Source of the DNA: Methylobacterium terrae
GTDB lineage: Bacteria; Pseudomonadota; Alphaproteobacteria; Rhizobiales; Beijerinckiaceae
Length of the DNA stretch: 64,000 nucleotides
Direction of reading: 5' to 3'
Assembly: GCF_003173755.1 (NCBI RefSeq)
Contig: NZ_CP029553.1
Location: 273,001 to 337,000 of the forward strand
A model generated the notes under the pieces. It did no database searches and was not told where the DNA came from. It saw only the letters and a list, made by a program, of their open reading frames with translations. Positions within the stretch are counted from its first letter, which is position 1. Each line of letters opens with the position of its first letter. This document shows positions 58,315 through 63,075 of this stretch, piece by piece. Made by a program: the position numbers and the translations under genes.

Positions 58315-59562
58315 TCAGCCGTAGCGCCGCGCCGCCTCGACGGTGAGCCCGAGGCCGACCGAGCCGAAGGTGTCGCCCTCGACCACCCGGGCCTCCGGCG
58401 CCGTCGCCAGGATGGCGGCGCGCACCGGGGCGAGGCGGGTCGAGCCGCCGGTGAGGAACAGGGCATCGATCTTCCCCGGGGCCACGCCCGCGTCGCGCAG
58501 GCACCGCGCGATGCAGGCCCCGATGCGCCGGGCGAGGTCGGCCGAGTGCCGGGCGAGGTCGGGGCGGCCGATCTCGGCCGTCAGGCCGGGCTCGACCCAG
58601 CCGAGCGGCAGGCCGATCCGGTCGACCTCCGACAGGGCGATCTTGGCATCCTCGACCTCCATCGCCAGGGTGTGGCCGCGCTCGGCCTCGATCACCGCGG
58701 CGAGGCGGTCGATCAGCTCGGGGCGCGCCACCTCGCGGCGCAGGGAGCGCAGCTCGCGCAGGGTTCGGCCGTCGTAGAGCCGGTTGATCTGCGACCAGGT
58801 GGCGAGGTCGTGGTAGTAGGCCGAGGGCACGTCGAGGCCCGGGCGCCGCATCGGGCTGCCGAGGCCGAGGAGCGGCATCACCTCGCCGACGCTGAGCGTG
58901 CGGTCGAAGTCGGTGCCGCCGATCCGCACGCCGTCGTTGGACAGGATGTCGCCGGCCCGCTCCACCGCCCGGTGCCGCTCGGGGCTCAGGCGCACCACCG
59001 AGAAGTCCGACGTGCCGCCGCCGATATCGGCGATCAGCGCCACCTCCTCGCGGGCGAGCCCGCGCTCGTAGTCGAGCGCGGCGGCGATCGGCTCGTACTG
59101 GAACGACACCTCGGCGAAGCCGACCTCCCGGGCGATGGCGGCCAGCGCCTCCTCGGCCCGGCGGTCGCCGTCGGGGTCGCCGTCGACGAAGTGGACCGGG
59201 CGGCCATGGACCACCCGGGTCAGGGCCTCTCCCGCTTGGCTCTCCGCCCGCGCCTTCACGGCGGCGAGATAGCGGGCGATCACCGCCCGGAACGACAGCC
59301 GCCGGCGCCCGACCGGCGTCGTCTCCTCGAGGAGCGAGGAGCCGAGCACCGATTTCAGGCTGCGCATCAGCCGCCCGGGCGTGCCCTCGACATAGGCCGC
59401 GATGGCGGCCCGGCCGATCGCCTCGTCGCCGGCGGGCGGGAAGAAGATCGCGCTCGGGATCGTGACCGCCTCGCCCTCCAGCCGCGCCAGCGCGGGCCCG
59501 TCGGCCCGGTTGAGTCCGAGAGTGGTGTTCGAGGTGCCGAAATCGAGGCCGCAGGCCGCCAT
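58315..59562 (-). CDS. Hsp70-like protein (YegD type)
   Basis: 415 residues, containing only the actin-like ATPase domain and lacking the substrate-binding domain of DnaK. Phosphate-binding loops: CGLDFGTSNTTLGLNR and LIADIGGGTSDFSVVRL; adenosine motif LFLTGGSTRLAPVRAAI near the C-terminus. YegD-like proteins have no settled function. ATG at 59562 is chosen because homologues begin right before GLDFGTSN. Its 3' end lies four bases from the SsuA-like gene. Confidence 0.92.
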   Translation of the reverse strand: MAACGLDFGTSNTTLGLNRADGPALARLEGEAVTIPSAIFFPPAGDEAIGRAAIAAYVEGTPGRLMRSLKSVLGSSLLEETTPVGRRRLSFRAVIARYLAAVKARAESQAGEALTRVVHGRPVHFVDGDPDGDRRAEEALAAIAREVGFAEVSFQYEPIAAALDYERGLAREEVALIADIGGGTSDFSVVRLSPERHRAVERAGDILSNDGVRIGGTDFDRTLSVGEVMPLLGLGSPMRRPGLDVPSAYYHDLATWSQINRLYDGRTLRELRSLRREVARPELIDRLAAVIEAERGHTLAMEVEDAKIALSEVDRIGLPLGWVEPGLTAEIGRPDLARHSADLARRIGACIARCLRDAGVAPGKIDALFLTGGSTRLAPVRAAILATAPEARVVEGDTFGSVGLGLTVEAARRYG

Positions 59563-59661
59563 GCCGAATCTCTGCCGGTGCCGGGGAGGAGGGGCGCGCG
59601 ACCTAGCGGGTTCCGCCGCCACGGTCCAGCCCGGACGCCGGGCCAAGCCGTCTCTCGCTAC

Positions 59662-59686
59662 GGAACAATGCGCCGTCTCGGCGGTT
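59662..59686 (+). promoter_or_regulatory. EcfG-type (general stress) promoter for csbD
   Basis: GGAAC (59662-59666) followed after 16 bases by GGTT (59683-59686), matching the alphaproteobacterial EcfG consensus. The -10 is 47 bases before the csbD start. CsbD-type genes are stress-induced in other bacteria, which supports the call. Confidence 0.65.
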
Positions 59687-59733: not shown

Positions 59734-59937
59734 ATGAGCAGCACCACCGACAAGATCAAGGGCCTGGCCAACGAGGCGGTCGGCAACATCAAGCAGGGCA
59801 TCGGCAGCGCCACCGGCAACGACAAGCTGCAGGCCGAGGGCAAGGCCCAGGAGCTGAAGGGCGAGGCCCAGAAGACCACCGGCGACGTCAAGGACGGCAT
59901 CAAGAATGCCGCCGACACGGTGAAGAGCAAGCTCTGA
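59734..59937 (+). CDS. CsbD family stress protein
   Basis: 67-residue, highly charged helical protein of the CsbD family, known as a general-stress-induced protein in Bacillus and others; its molecular role is unsettled. [20 protein letters not shown] matches the family start, followed by [11 protein letters not shown] and [12 protein letters not shown] follows GGAGACGAGGAG. An EcfG-type promoter lies 50-70 bases upstream and a terminator follows, so it is probably a single-gene stress transcript. Confidence 0.92.
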
Positions 59938-59985: not shown

Positions 59986-60029
59986 GGCCGGTCCCTCGCA
60001 CCCCGTGCGGGAGGCCGGCCTTTTCTTTT
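59986..60029 (+). terminator. rho-independent terminator after csbD
   Basis: GC-rich hairpin between 59986-60001 and 60005-60020 (with wobbles and a few mismatches), then TTTTCTTTT at 60021-60029. It is the clearest classical terminator in the window. Confidence 0.75.
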
Positions 60030-60052
60030 GCCGAACCGGAGAGGAAACCACG

Positions 60053-60445
60053 ATGAACAGGGACCAGATCGAGGGCGGCCTGCGCAACATCAAGGGCCGC
60101 GGCCAGACCGCGCTCGGCGCCGTGTCGGGCCGCGCCCGGCCCCAGGTCGAAGGCGCGCTCAACCAGGTCGTCGGCGGAGCCCAGTACGCCTACGGCCGCG
60201 GCCGGCGCGTCGCCGAGGACCTGACGCATGACGGTGCGGCGCTGGCCGGCCAGATCGAGAAGCGCGGGCGCCATGCCTACGACCGCGGTCGCGACGCCTA
60301 CGAGCGCGGGCGAGAGGCCTACGGCGAGGCGCGTCACCGCGGCCGTGCCGCCCTGCGCCGGGCCGAGGCGCACCCGACCGAGACGCTGCTGGCGGTCGCC
60401 GGCCTCGCCTTCGTCGCCGGCTGGCTGCTGAAGGGGCGCCGCTGA
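60053..60445 (+). CDS. CsbD-related protein with C-terminal DUF883/ElaB-like membrane tail
   Basis: 130 residues. The N-terminus (MNRDQIEGGLRNIKGRGQTA) follows the CsbD pattern (NWDQIEGNWKQ.KG). The middle is a Gly/Arg/Tyr-rich helical stretch with repeated YxRGR units (YDRGRDAYERGREAYGEAR). The end (HPTETLLAVAGLAFVAGWLLKGRR) is a short membrane helix with basic tail as in ElaB/YqjD proteins, which bind ribosomes in stationary phase. Likely a stress or stationary-phase membrane protein. GGAGAGGAAACC precedes the ATG. Its last codons lie within a tandem 32-bp repeat. Confidence 0.75.
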   Translation: MNRDQIEGGLRNIKGRGQTALGAVSGRARPQVEGALNQVVGGAQYAYGRGRRVAEDLTHDGAALAGQIEKRGRHAYDRGRDAYERGREAYGEARHRGRAALRRAEAHPTETLLAVAGLAFVAGWLLKGRR

Positions 60446-60647: not shown

Positions 60648-61457
60648 ATGACCCAGAGCACGCCCCCCGGTCCGCCAGACGCCGCCCCGGTTGCGATCGA
60701 CCCCGGCATCGCTGCCGAGAAGACCGCTCCCGCGACGGTGGCCGCTGCCCTGGCGGCCCCGGCCCTGCCCTTCTCGGTCCAGGAGCACCTCGGCGAGCGG
60801 CTGCGCGCGCACTACGCCGCGGTCGCTGAGGAGCCGGCGCCCGCCGCCTTCGCGGACCTGCTCGCGCGGCTCGAGCAGGCGCTCGCCATCATGGGCGCGC
60901 CGAAGAAGGACGCGTTTCGCGAGGATCTGCTCGCCGCCGCGCCGGCCCTCCGCCGCTTCGCCCTGACCCTGACCGCCAACCCGGTCCGCGCCGACGACCT
61001 GGTGCAGGACACGATGCTGAAGGCCTGGCAGAACCGCGACCGGTTCGAGGCCGGGACCAACCTCAGCGCCTGGCTGTTCACGATCATGCGCAACGCCTTC
61101 TACTCGGAGCACCGCAAGCGCGCCCGGGAGGTCGAGGACAGCGAGGGCGTCTACTCGGCCCGCCTGACCTCGGCACCGAACCAGGGCGACCGGCTCGACG
61201 TGCAGGACCTGCAGGCCGCGCTCAACAAGCTGGTGGCCGAGCAGCGCGAGGCCCTGATGCTGGTCGCGGTCGGCGACCTCTCCTACGAGGATGCGGCCGC
61301 GCTGATGCAGTGCAAGGTCGGCACGGTGAAGAGCCGGGTCTGCCGCGCCCGCGACAAGCTCGCCGAGCTCCTGGGCTACAGCGGCGGCGAGCTCGGGGCC
61401 GACCGGCTGACCCGCTCGGTGATGGGGCATTCCGGCGCGGTGGCCCTCGACGGCTGA
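60648..61457 (+). CDS. EcfG-type sigma factor with an N-terminal NepR-like domain
   Basis: 269 residues. Residues about 44-79 (VQEHLGERLRAHYAAVAEEP, then APAAFADLLARLEQA) match the NepR anti-sigma consensus (iG..Lra.Y...v.epvPd.f.dLL..Le). From residue 86 an EcfG-like sigma factor follows: region 2 (ALTLTANPVRADDLVQDTML; FEAGTNLSAWLFTIMRNAFY) and region 4 (LVAEQREALMLVAVGDLSYE; CKVGTVKSRVCRARDKLAEL). In most alphaproteobacteria NepR and EcfG are separate, often adjacent genes, and PhyR relieves the inhibition. Here both lie in one uninterrupted frame. It follows two CsbD-type stress genes. No PhyR is in the window. Confidence 0.85.
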   Translation: MTQSTPPGPPDAAPVAIDPGIAAEKTAPATVAAALAAPALPFSVQEHLGERLRAHYAAVAEEPAPAAFADLLARLEQALAIMGAPKKDAFREDLLAAAPALRRFALTLTANPVRADDLVQDTMLKAWQNRDRFEAGTNLSAWLFTIMRNAFYSEHRKRAREVEDSEGVYSARLTSAPNQGDRLDVQDLQAALNKLVAEQREALMLVAVGDLSYEDAAALMQCKVGTVKSRVCRARDKLAELLGYSGGELGADRLTRSVMGHSGAVALDG

Positions 61458-62286
61458 CAGGACCTGCTCCGAAGGCGCCCTCCCCCGGGCGGGCTTTCCT
61501 CGGGCATCACCTCGCGCGGCCTGCCGCCCCCTGCCGGACGGCATCGATCCGAGCGGTGCGGCGGCCGGCGCGCGCCATTCGGCCTATGGGCGCCCGGCCG
61601 GACAGGCGCCGTCCGCCACGGACGGCCGCATCGGCCCCAGGCCCCGGGCGGATCGCCGCACGACACCTGAAGTATCGATCCGGGCTGGCCCCGCGCAAAC
61701 GACGCGCGCGATTCAGGCGTGGCCGACCATTCAACCGACGCTGACGCTGCTGCGCCTTCGCGCCGCCCCCCGGCCAATCCTTCGGCCGGTGAGTTGAGTC
61801 GCGCGTCATACTTTTGCGTACGTTGCGTCGGCGGACCCGCTAGCCGACGCCGGATCTGGCGAGATGACATTCCGGCCGTTCGTCGGCGACGCGGGGACTG
61901 TCGCGCCTCGAAAGTTCGACATCGTCTTGATTGAGAGAAACCGTTCGGCCCACGCAAAGAAATCGTGGCTGATTTTTTTCAGGAGATGAACCGGCACCGT
62001 GACCGTTTGGATTGAATTGCATCAAAACGATGCTTCACATAGTGGGCACCAGTATATTTCGCATCGCAACATCATGGACTCGGCTGACAGAGATAGGCCA
62101 GAATCATTCGCACAATGTTCGAAATTGGACAGACGCGAGACTGCCGTATCGTTAGATCAAGGGAGGGCTCGCCGTGAACGCGTGGTTGGGCGATGCGAGG
62201 GGCCTCCCGCGATCGTCGCCTCTTCGGACGGTGCCGCCCTCCGGCCGGACCGTGCGGCGGATTCCCGATTTCCGGAGACGACGACG
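61458..62286. other. 829-bp gap, no supportable gene
   Basis: GC falls toward the right side (61800-62160), suggesting a long regulatory leader or foreign DNA. A hairpin pairs 61825-61832 with 61843-61850 (GCGTCGGC/GCCGACGC). Frames on both strands lack recognisable domains. The frame of the downstream Crp/Fnr gene stays open back to 61999 but has no family similarity before about 62290. Confidence 0.5.
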
Positions 62287-63075
62287 TTGAATGCGCCGGA
62301 TGAGCCTCGGTCCCCCGAGGCCGGTCTTTTCGAGGGCAACCTCCTGCTCGAGGCGCTCGACACGGGCGACCGCGCCCTGCTGGCGCCCTATCTCGAGCGC
62401 GGGCAGCGGACCCGCGGGACCGTGCTGTTCCGGGCCGGCGAGGACGTCTCGCACGTCACCTTCCCGCTGAGCCAGACGACCGTGACCCTGGTCTCGCGCA
62501 TGCGCGACGGGCGCATGGTCGAGACCGCGACGGTGGGGCACGAGGGCGCCATCGGCGGCGTGGTGAGCCACGGCTACCTGCCGGCCTTCAGCGAGGCGAT
62601 CGTGCAGGTCTCGGGCGGCGTGCTGCGCCTCGACGCCGAGCGGCTGACCCGGGCCAGGGCCGCCTCCCCGACCCTGCGCGACCTGTTCGTGCGCTACGCC
62701 GACTGCCTCCTCGCCCAGGTGCTGCAATCGGTGGCGTGCAACGCCGTCCATCCGATCGAGGAGCGCTGCCTGCGCTGGCTCCTGACCTTCCAGGACCGGC
62801 TCGGCACGCCGGTCCTGCCGGTGACCCAGGAGATGCTGGCCGAGATGCTGGGCGTGCGCCGCACCTACCTCACCGGCGTGATCGGTGCGCTCCAGCGCCG
62901 GGGCCTGATCTCGGTGCGCCGCGGCCAGATCACCATCCTGGACCGGGCCGCGGCCGAGCATTCGGCCTGCGAGTGCTACGGCAAGGTCCGGCACCATTTC
63001 AGGTCCGTGCTCGGAGCGGTCTACAGCGAGACCGGCGGCATCGTGGCAGTCGATCCGACGCAGCGGCACGAGTAG
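62287..63075 (+). CDS. Crp/Fnr family transcriptional regulator
   Basis: 262 residues if started at the TTG at 62287 (LNAPDEPRSPEAGLF), with GGAGA upstream; the frame is open further upstream, so the true start is uncertain. The cyclic-nucleotide-type beta barrel is visible (RGTVLFRAGEDVSHVTFPLS; MVETATVGHEGAIGGV) with a C-terminal HTH (LPVTQEMLAEMLGVRRTYLTGVIGALQRRGLI). The cysteines (SACECYG, SVACNAVHP) do not form the classical Fnr cluster pattern. Proteins of this type often act in stress or light responses in Methylobacterium and relatives. Its 3' end is 6 bases from the convergent SMR gene. Confidence 0.87.
   Translation: MNAPDEPRSPEAGLFEGNLLLEALDTGDRALLAPYLERGQRTRGTVLFRAGEDVSHVTFPLSQTTVTLVSRMRDGRMVETATVGHEGAIGGVVSHGYLPAFSEAIVQVSGGVLRLDAERLTRARAASPTLRDLFVRYADCLLAQVLQSVACNAVHPIEERCLRWLLTFQDRLGTPVLPVTQEMLAEMLGVRRTYLTGVIGALQRRGLISVRRGQITILDRAAAEHSACECYGKVRHHFRSVLGAVYSETGGIVAVDPTQRHE

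Follow-up and report, generated by a model that had tools for sequence, protein, structure and literature searches.

Why should a sigma factor carry, on its own polypeptide chain, a domain of the very protein that inhibits such factors? This question is raised by a gene of Methylobacterium terrae in which a NepR domain and an EcfG-type sigma factor are encoded as one protein. The gene is located at positions 333648-334454 of a 6.16-Mb single contig, within a 64,000-nucleotide stretch (contig positions 273001-337000; hereafter, the window). The initial annotation of the window proposed such a join and left it undecided whether the fusion had been studied. In fact, the architecture has been noted and partly tested in Methylorubrum (Methylobacterium) extorquens by Francez-Charlot et al. 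2016 (PMC4814048; here and below, cited from the part of its text available to us), who noted that sigma-EcfG proteins of this bacterium carry a NepR-like extension, which they called an ancient fusion. The window gene is a further, uncharacterised, lineage-specific copy of this already known architecture. The reading that we favor, with about as much belief as doubt, is that the gene is a paralogue, specific to its lineage, of the NepR-extended sigma-EcfG factors of Methylobacteriaceae, that the extension originated through loss of a stop codon, and that the NepR helices would act in cis as a lid on the sigma factor.

The NepR domain and the sigma factor share one frame

The reading frame runs from an ATG at position 60648 of the window to a TGA at 61455-61457, with zero internal stops, and encodes 269 amino acids (Table 1). 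Searches against Pfam identify NepR (PF18557) at residues 45-78 (41.2 bits, E 1.2e-10; gathering cut-off 25.7), Sigma70_r2 at residues 98-160 (67.2 bits) and Sigma70_r4_2 at residues 187-238 (56.1 bits). Both the in-frame join that was initially proposed and its approximate limits (NepR at about residues 44-79, the sigma factor from residue 86) agree closely with these matches. A six-frame search of the genome returns the same NepR match, inside a stop-free frame of 279 codons.

Among solved structures, the sigma part finds its best relative in 5uxx_A (E 2e-51), the sigma factor in the RpoE-NepR complex of Bartonella; for the NepR part alone, it is chain B of the same entry, a weak match (E 0.007). 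The closest relatives of the sigma part are EcfG-type sigma factors, and its identity to the 28 sigma factors in the alignment that come from genera other than Methylobacterium and Methylorubrum is 42-53%. The best NCBIfam match of the whole protein is PRK12546.1 (215 bits, below its cut-off of 270), and no model named for ECF15 is present among the best 25 of its 93 NCBIfam matches. Because both parts belong to a single chain, the protein has a NepR domain and is not itself a stand-alone NepR protein; the domain shares 45% identity, over 49 residues, with the canonical NepR of the same genome. The N-terminal tail that precedes it (residues 1-43) is poorly conserved and mostly predicted to be disordered, with AlphaFold pLDDT (predicted local distance difference test) values of 36-45 per ten-residue block across residues 1-40.

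Table 1. Features of the fused gene and its surroundings, in window coordinates (omega, ratio of nonsynonymous to synonymous substitution, pooled over seven genomes unless stated otherwise)
Feature	Position	Strand	Evidence and remarks
Fused NepR-sigma-EcfG gene, 269 aa	60648..61457	+	Open frame, Pfam domains, orthologues in named Methylobacterium species
N-terminal tail, residues 1-43	60648..60776	+	Omega 0.69 (named orthologues); pLDDT 36-45
NepR domain, residues 45-78	60780..60881	+	PF18557, 41.2 bits; two helices in model; omega 0.34
Residues 79-88, last part of the segment joining NepR helix 2 to sigma region 2	60882..60911	+	Near-invariant spacing
Sigma region 2, residues 89-165	60912..61142	+	PF04542 at 98-160; omega 0.12
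Sigma region 4, residues 187-242	61206..61373	+	PF08281 at 187-238; omega 0.09
Hsp70-like ATPase gene	58315-59646	-	Read from sequence; opposite strand to csbD genes
csbD-type gene, first	59734-59937		Upstream of fused gene
csbD-type gene, second	60005-60445		Upstream of fused gene; below Pfam cut-off
Crp-type regulator	61999-63075	+	HTH_Crp_2, 54.2 bits; cyclic-nucleotide domain, 14.2 bits, below cut-off

The fused gene is one of several in this genome. Ten matches to the window protein were detected, of which seven are of EcfG type by score (three weak ECF, or extracytoplasmic function, matches are left out of the count). The census of such genes that the initial annotation had suggested yields six NepR-fused genes and one unfused gene among these seven, in addition to a canonical nepR beside phyR. 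The unfused gene is part of a nepR-ecfG pair (contig 1, 369405-370471) in which the nepR stop overlaps the ecfG start codon. The single phyR (813929-814732) is transcribed divergently from the canonical nepR (frame 813481-813918, minus strand) and has no adjoining EcfG-type gene; the fused window gene resides elsewhere on the same contig. Near phyR, a further NepR-like frame (contig 1, 812344-812664, plus strand) was spotted by eye and is absent from the Pfam NepR matches; it could represent a NepR paralogue that binds PhyR. A NepR frame beside an EcfG match also has its own stop in five further Methylobacterium genomes, with the sigma frame displayed for two of the five.

Distribution and origin of the fusion

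In each of the 41 Methylobacterium genomes searched, the window protein finds its best match in a stop-free fusion, with the match starting no later than query position 38 and running into the sigma part. Because matches with at least 80% identity are limited to seven of the 41 genomes, that of M. terrae included, the window gene is a lineage-specific copy, and a second fused copy, with about 60% identity to the window protein, occurs across the genus (at 516987 in M. terrae). The nearest named relatives are found in M. variabile (98% identity over the 159 residues that its contig holds) and M. terricola (90%), which suggests that M. terrae belongs with these species. Beyond Methylobacterium, the matches listed in a family-wide search of 80 genomes include uninterrupted fusions in three genomes from two other genera, here denoted G312, G348 and G352. 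The loci of G312, G348 and Microvirga terrae were read individually, and G352 comes from the family-wide search alone; in Microvirga terrae, the fusion contains no stop and one coding sequence is annotated across it.

Given that nepR and ecfG are often separate outside the genus, the apparent fusion might be suspected to result from a sequencing or assembly error, or from a missed stop between two genes. Such an artefact is refuted because orthologues carry the stop-free fusion in 41 of 41 Methylobacterium genomes, in named species and in Microvirga terrae, and in close relatives the two halves are not separated by a stop; we regard it as vanishingly improbable. A phage origin of the fused gene was rejected as well, since none of the phage records spans 80% of the query, with 49 records matching part of it.

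In the order as a whole, 167 of 249 genomes contain a match to the window protein. The order- and family-wide searches list the best matches, with at most 12 candidates per genome scored order-wide, and the reading of listed matches covered those that start within the first 24 query positions. Among the matches listed outside the family that start at query positions 1-10, which come from 11 genomes, all contain at least one in-frame stop, and in the ten of these genomes that were read, nepR ends and then ecfG starts. All ten stop-free matches listed outside Methylobacterium that start at query positions 11-24 (three in other families and seven in this family) turned out to be unfused on reading. 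Three further loci were read, of which those of G312 and G348 are fused and that of a third genome, G316, is unfused, with an in-frame stop. A class-wide scan for NepR, run at E 1e-6 with no more than 19 candidates scored in any genome, produced 51 matches in 45 of 385 genomes. The four longest NepR frames outside Methylobacterium (180 to 548 codons) were read as candidates for independent fusions, and none of them enters a sigma factor; the Pfam NepR model misses divergent NepR, so that rarer fusions elsewhere may be missed.

The locus of G316, which belongs to the same family and shares its genus with the fused G352, is informative with regard to origin. There, nepR and ecfG are unfused but occupy one frame (LLKKLESPEG-stop-IMTIEPDLRD), and 12 codons, the stop included, separate the LE of NepR helix 2 from the LR at the start of sigma region 2. 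In the fused proteins, 13 residues nearly always separate the LE of helix 2 from the FR at the start of sigma region 2. In ten unfused operons from other families, helix 2 and sigma region 2 are 17 to 23 codons apart (counted by eye). To judge from these sequences, the G316 arrangement is likely a picture of the state that preceded the fusion. The two-helix pattern is present in all 59 proteins taken as fused, with a variable loop between the NepR helices, and the helix-2 motif lies at a distance of 44 from ADDLVQ in 56 of them, 47 in two and 46 in one; both spacings of 47 are, by eye, early matches of the pattern. Because many of the 59 are close relatives, they do not represent 59 independent events.

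A tree of sigma domains with 69 rows (44 fused and 25 unfused) requires one change of state between fused and unfused, which recurs in 74% of 200 bootstrap trees, with a branch support of 75/57. A set of 42 fused rows is supported at 96/96 and the clade of seven rows that includes the window gene at 95/86; the set of 42 does not include the two fused rows of Microvirga type. A single origin of the fusion fits this tree and is weakly supported by it, not proven. The simplest account, and the most likely one on the sequences compared, is stop loss in a compact nepR-ecfG operon: two neighbors in one frame would have become joined when the nepR stop of an ancestral operon was lost, and the fused gene would then have duplicated and diverged into paralogues.

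Selection on the NepR part and its possible roles

Whether the NepR part is more than a remnant can be addressed through omega (pooled Nei-Gojobori estimates). Across the seven genomes that carry the window gene, omega is 0.34 in the NepR part (bootstrap 0.21-0.55), with the lower values of both sigma regions given in Table 1. For the genus-wide copy, the values are 0.31 (0.14-0.57) in the NepR part and 0.03-0.04 in the sigma regions, and the core of canonical NepR in the same genomes gives 0.16 (0.07-0.30). All these intervals are rough, given non-independent pairs and short stretches. By this measure, purifying selection acts on the fused NepR domain, which is, apparently, less constrained than stand-alone NepR.

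The relaxed constraint would be expected if the extension were a functionless leftover of the fusion event that is retained since the start codon lies upstream of it. The NepR-part omega exceeds that of the sigma domains roughly three- to tenfold; moreover, of ten fused relatives scanned singly, one has a NepR match above the Pfam cut-off, three have matches below it and six have none at E 0.1, and the role of the extension was, in the words of the authors who described it, 'currently not known' in 2016 (PMC4814048). However, the upper bounds of omega in two paralogue groups, 0.55 and 0.57, are well below 1, compared to 0.69 in the tail; the helix pair and its spacing persist in the 59 fused proteins to the extent described above; and eight further fused copies of the genus, from fourteen chosen genomes, score above the NepR cut-off. 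We consider a leftover unlikely. The near-fixed linker, the purifying selection and the unfused in-frame neighbor make a role in cis more likely than a relic.

The published experiments bear on the nature of such a role. In vitro, sigma-EcfG1 of M. extorquens bound NepR only when N-terminally truncated, and in two-hybrid assays NepR was bound by the truncated forms of sigma-EcfG1 (strongly) and sigma-EcfG5 (weakly); an in vivo pull-down with NepR recovered both isoforms of sigma-EcfG1, full length and 14 residues shorter (PMC4814048). Both general-stress transcription and NepR binding by truncated forms are published, in this source, for the M. extorquens paralogues only. Of the regulatory effects that the initial annotation had suggested, an effect in cis fits best with truncated-only binding, whereas permanent 1:1 inhibition is at odds with the complementation of the sextuple mutant by ecfG1 and ecfG2 when these are cloned as entire reading frames (PMC4814048). 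We propose a role in cis because truncated-only binding coincides with purifying selection on the NepR part and with near-fixed spacing to sigma region 2. In a presumed geometry, the tethered NepR helices would lie over the NepR-binding face of their own sigma factor, with the 13-residue linker fixing their register. They would compete from within the same chain, excluding free NepR, and possibly other partners, until the lid is displaced, and would adjust how accessible the sigma factor is instead of shutting it down permanently. Three elements of this scheme are inferred: that the helices pack in cis, that they compete with free NepR in the window paralogue, and that phosphorylated PhyR (PhyR~P) acts directly on the lid.

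Structure prediction, which had been suggested for the chain alone, leaves the NepR part without a verdict. In the AlphaFold model of the fused protein (pTM, predicted template modeling score, 0.49), the NepR part forms helices at residues 42-58 and 66-81 (pLDDT about 70-84), and the sigma factor adopts a closed, anti-sigma-bound-like arrangement that resembles 5uxx. The sigma part alone, modeled as a control (pTM 0.57), gives the same closed arrangement with a better fit; the model is therefore silent on the NepR part, which is barely covered by fold matches, and was dropped as a test of packing in cis.

The NepR domain might also face PhyR rather than the sigma factor, serving as a docking site through which direct binding of PhyR~P would activate the sigma factor independently of free NepR, or as a decoy that titrates PhyR. 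By their entry titles, solved complexes contain NepR with EcfG and NepR with PhyR (5uxx, 4qic, 2lfw); M. extorquens has two stand-alone NepR paralogues that bind PhyR, with no binding to any sigma-EcfG found, and the route by which phyR would control sigma-EcfG2 was unidentified as of that study (PMC4814048). Conversely, the available part of the same paper yielded no binding data for the fused domain, and the identity of this domain to canonical NepR cannot separate PhyR-binding from sigma-binding residues. Docking or titration of PhyR appears possible but doubtful. A complete partner switch within one chain, in which the NepR helices would inhibit in cis and be removed directly by PhyR~P, with no need for free NepR and with affinity tuned separately in the six fused paralogues, strikes us as distinctly unlikely.

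Neighboring genes and known relatives

The surroundings of the fused gene are largely conserved: by tblastn, the first csbD-type gene is present at all six named orthologue loci, and the second csbD-type gene, the Hsp70-like gene and the downstream Crp-like regulator are each present at five of the six. A sequence of the sigma-EcfG promoter type, GGAAC-N16-GGTT (pattern from PMC4814048), is located at 59662-59686 on the plus strand, 72 bases 5' of the first csbD gene, and is kept at 71-72 bases in six of seven species, so that csbD is a likely general-stress target. No sigma-EcfG promoter (GGAAC-N15-18-C/G-GTT) was detected within 300 bases upstream of the fused gene or of the four orthologues examined, one of which has a site with a single mismatch. 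The CGTT form of the pattern occurs once in the whole window, at chance level (1.32 expected). Read-through from the csbD promoter could provide indirect feedback on the fused gene.

The closest described counterparts are sigma-EcfG1 to sigma-EcfG6 of M. extorquens AM1, likewise EcfG-type factors with an in-frame NepR-like N-terminal extension, present as several paralogous genes in one genome, all of them away from the phyR locus and none with a sigma-EcfG promoter directly upstream (PMC4814048). Unlike that set, the window paralogue belongs to the group confined to seven of the 41 Methylobacterium genomes and is not the genus-wide copy, and its genome also contains one unfused nepR-ecfG pair, for which the available part of PMC4814048 mentions no counterpart in AM1. 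The canonical NepR-EcfG pair, as in the Bartonella RpoE-NepR complex (5uxx), involves the same two partners and domain types, but as two chains from two genes. Inhibitor and sigma factor are also combined in a single polypeptide in IutY/ECF243 and in ECF36 with DUF2275; there, however, the inhibitor parts are membrane-bound and release is proteolytic (shown for IutY and proposed for ECF36; PMC8999054), in contrast to the small, soluble, N-terminal helix pair of the window protein. Two reviews that treat fused or extended ECF factors (PMC8999054, PMC8103513) make no mention of the NepR fusion in the parts available to us, and, among the papers listed by our literature search, we found no later functional study of the extension.

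Loss of a stop codon between neighbors in one frame would be a simple way for an inhibitor and its target to become one protein. If the NepR helices indeed form a switch in cis, this could explain how phyR controls those sigma-EcfG paralogues that do not bind free NepR.
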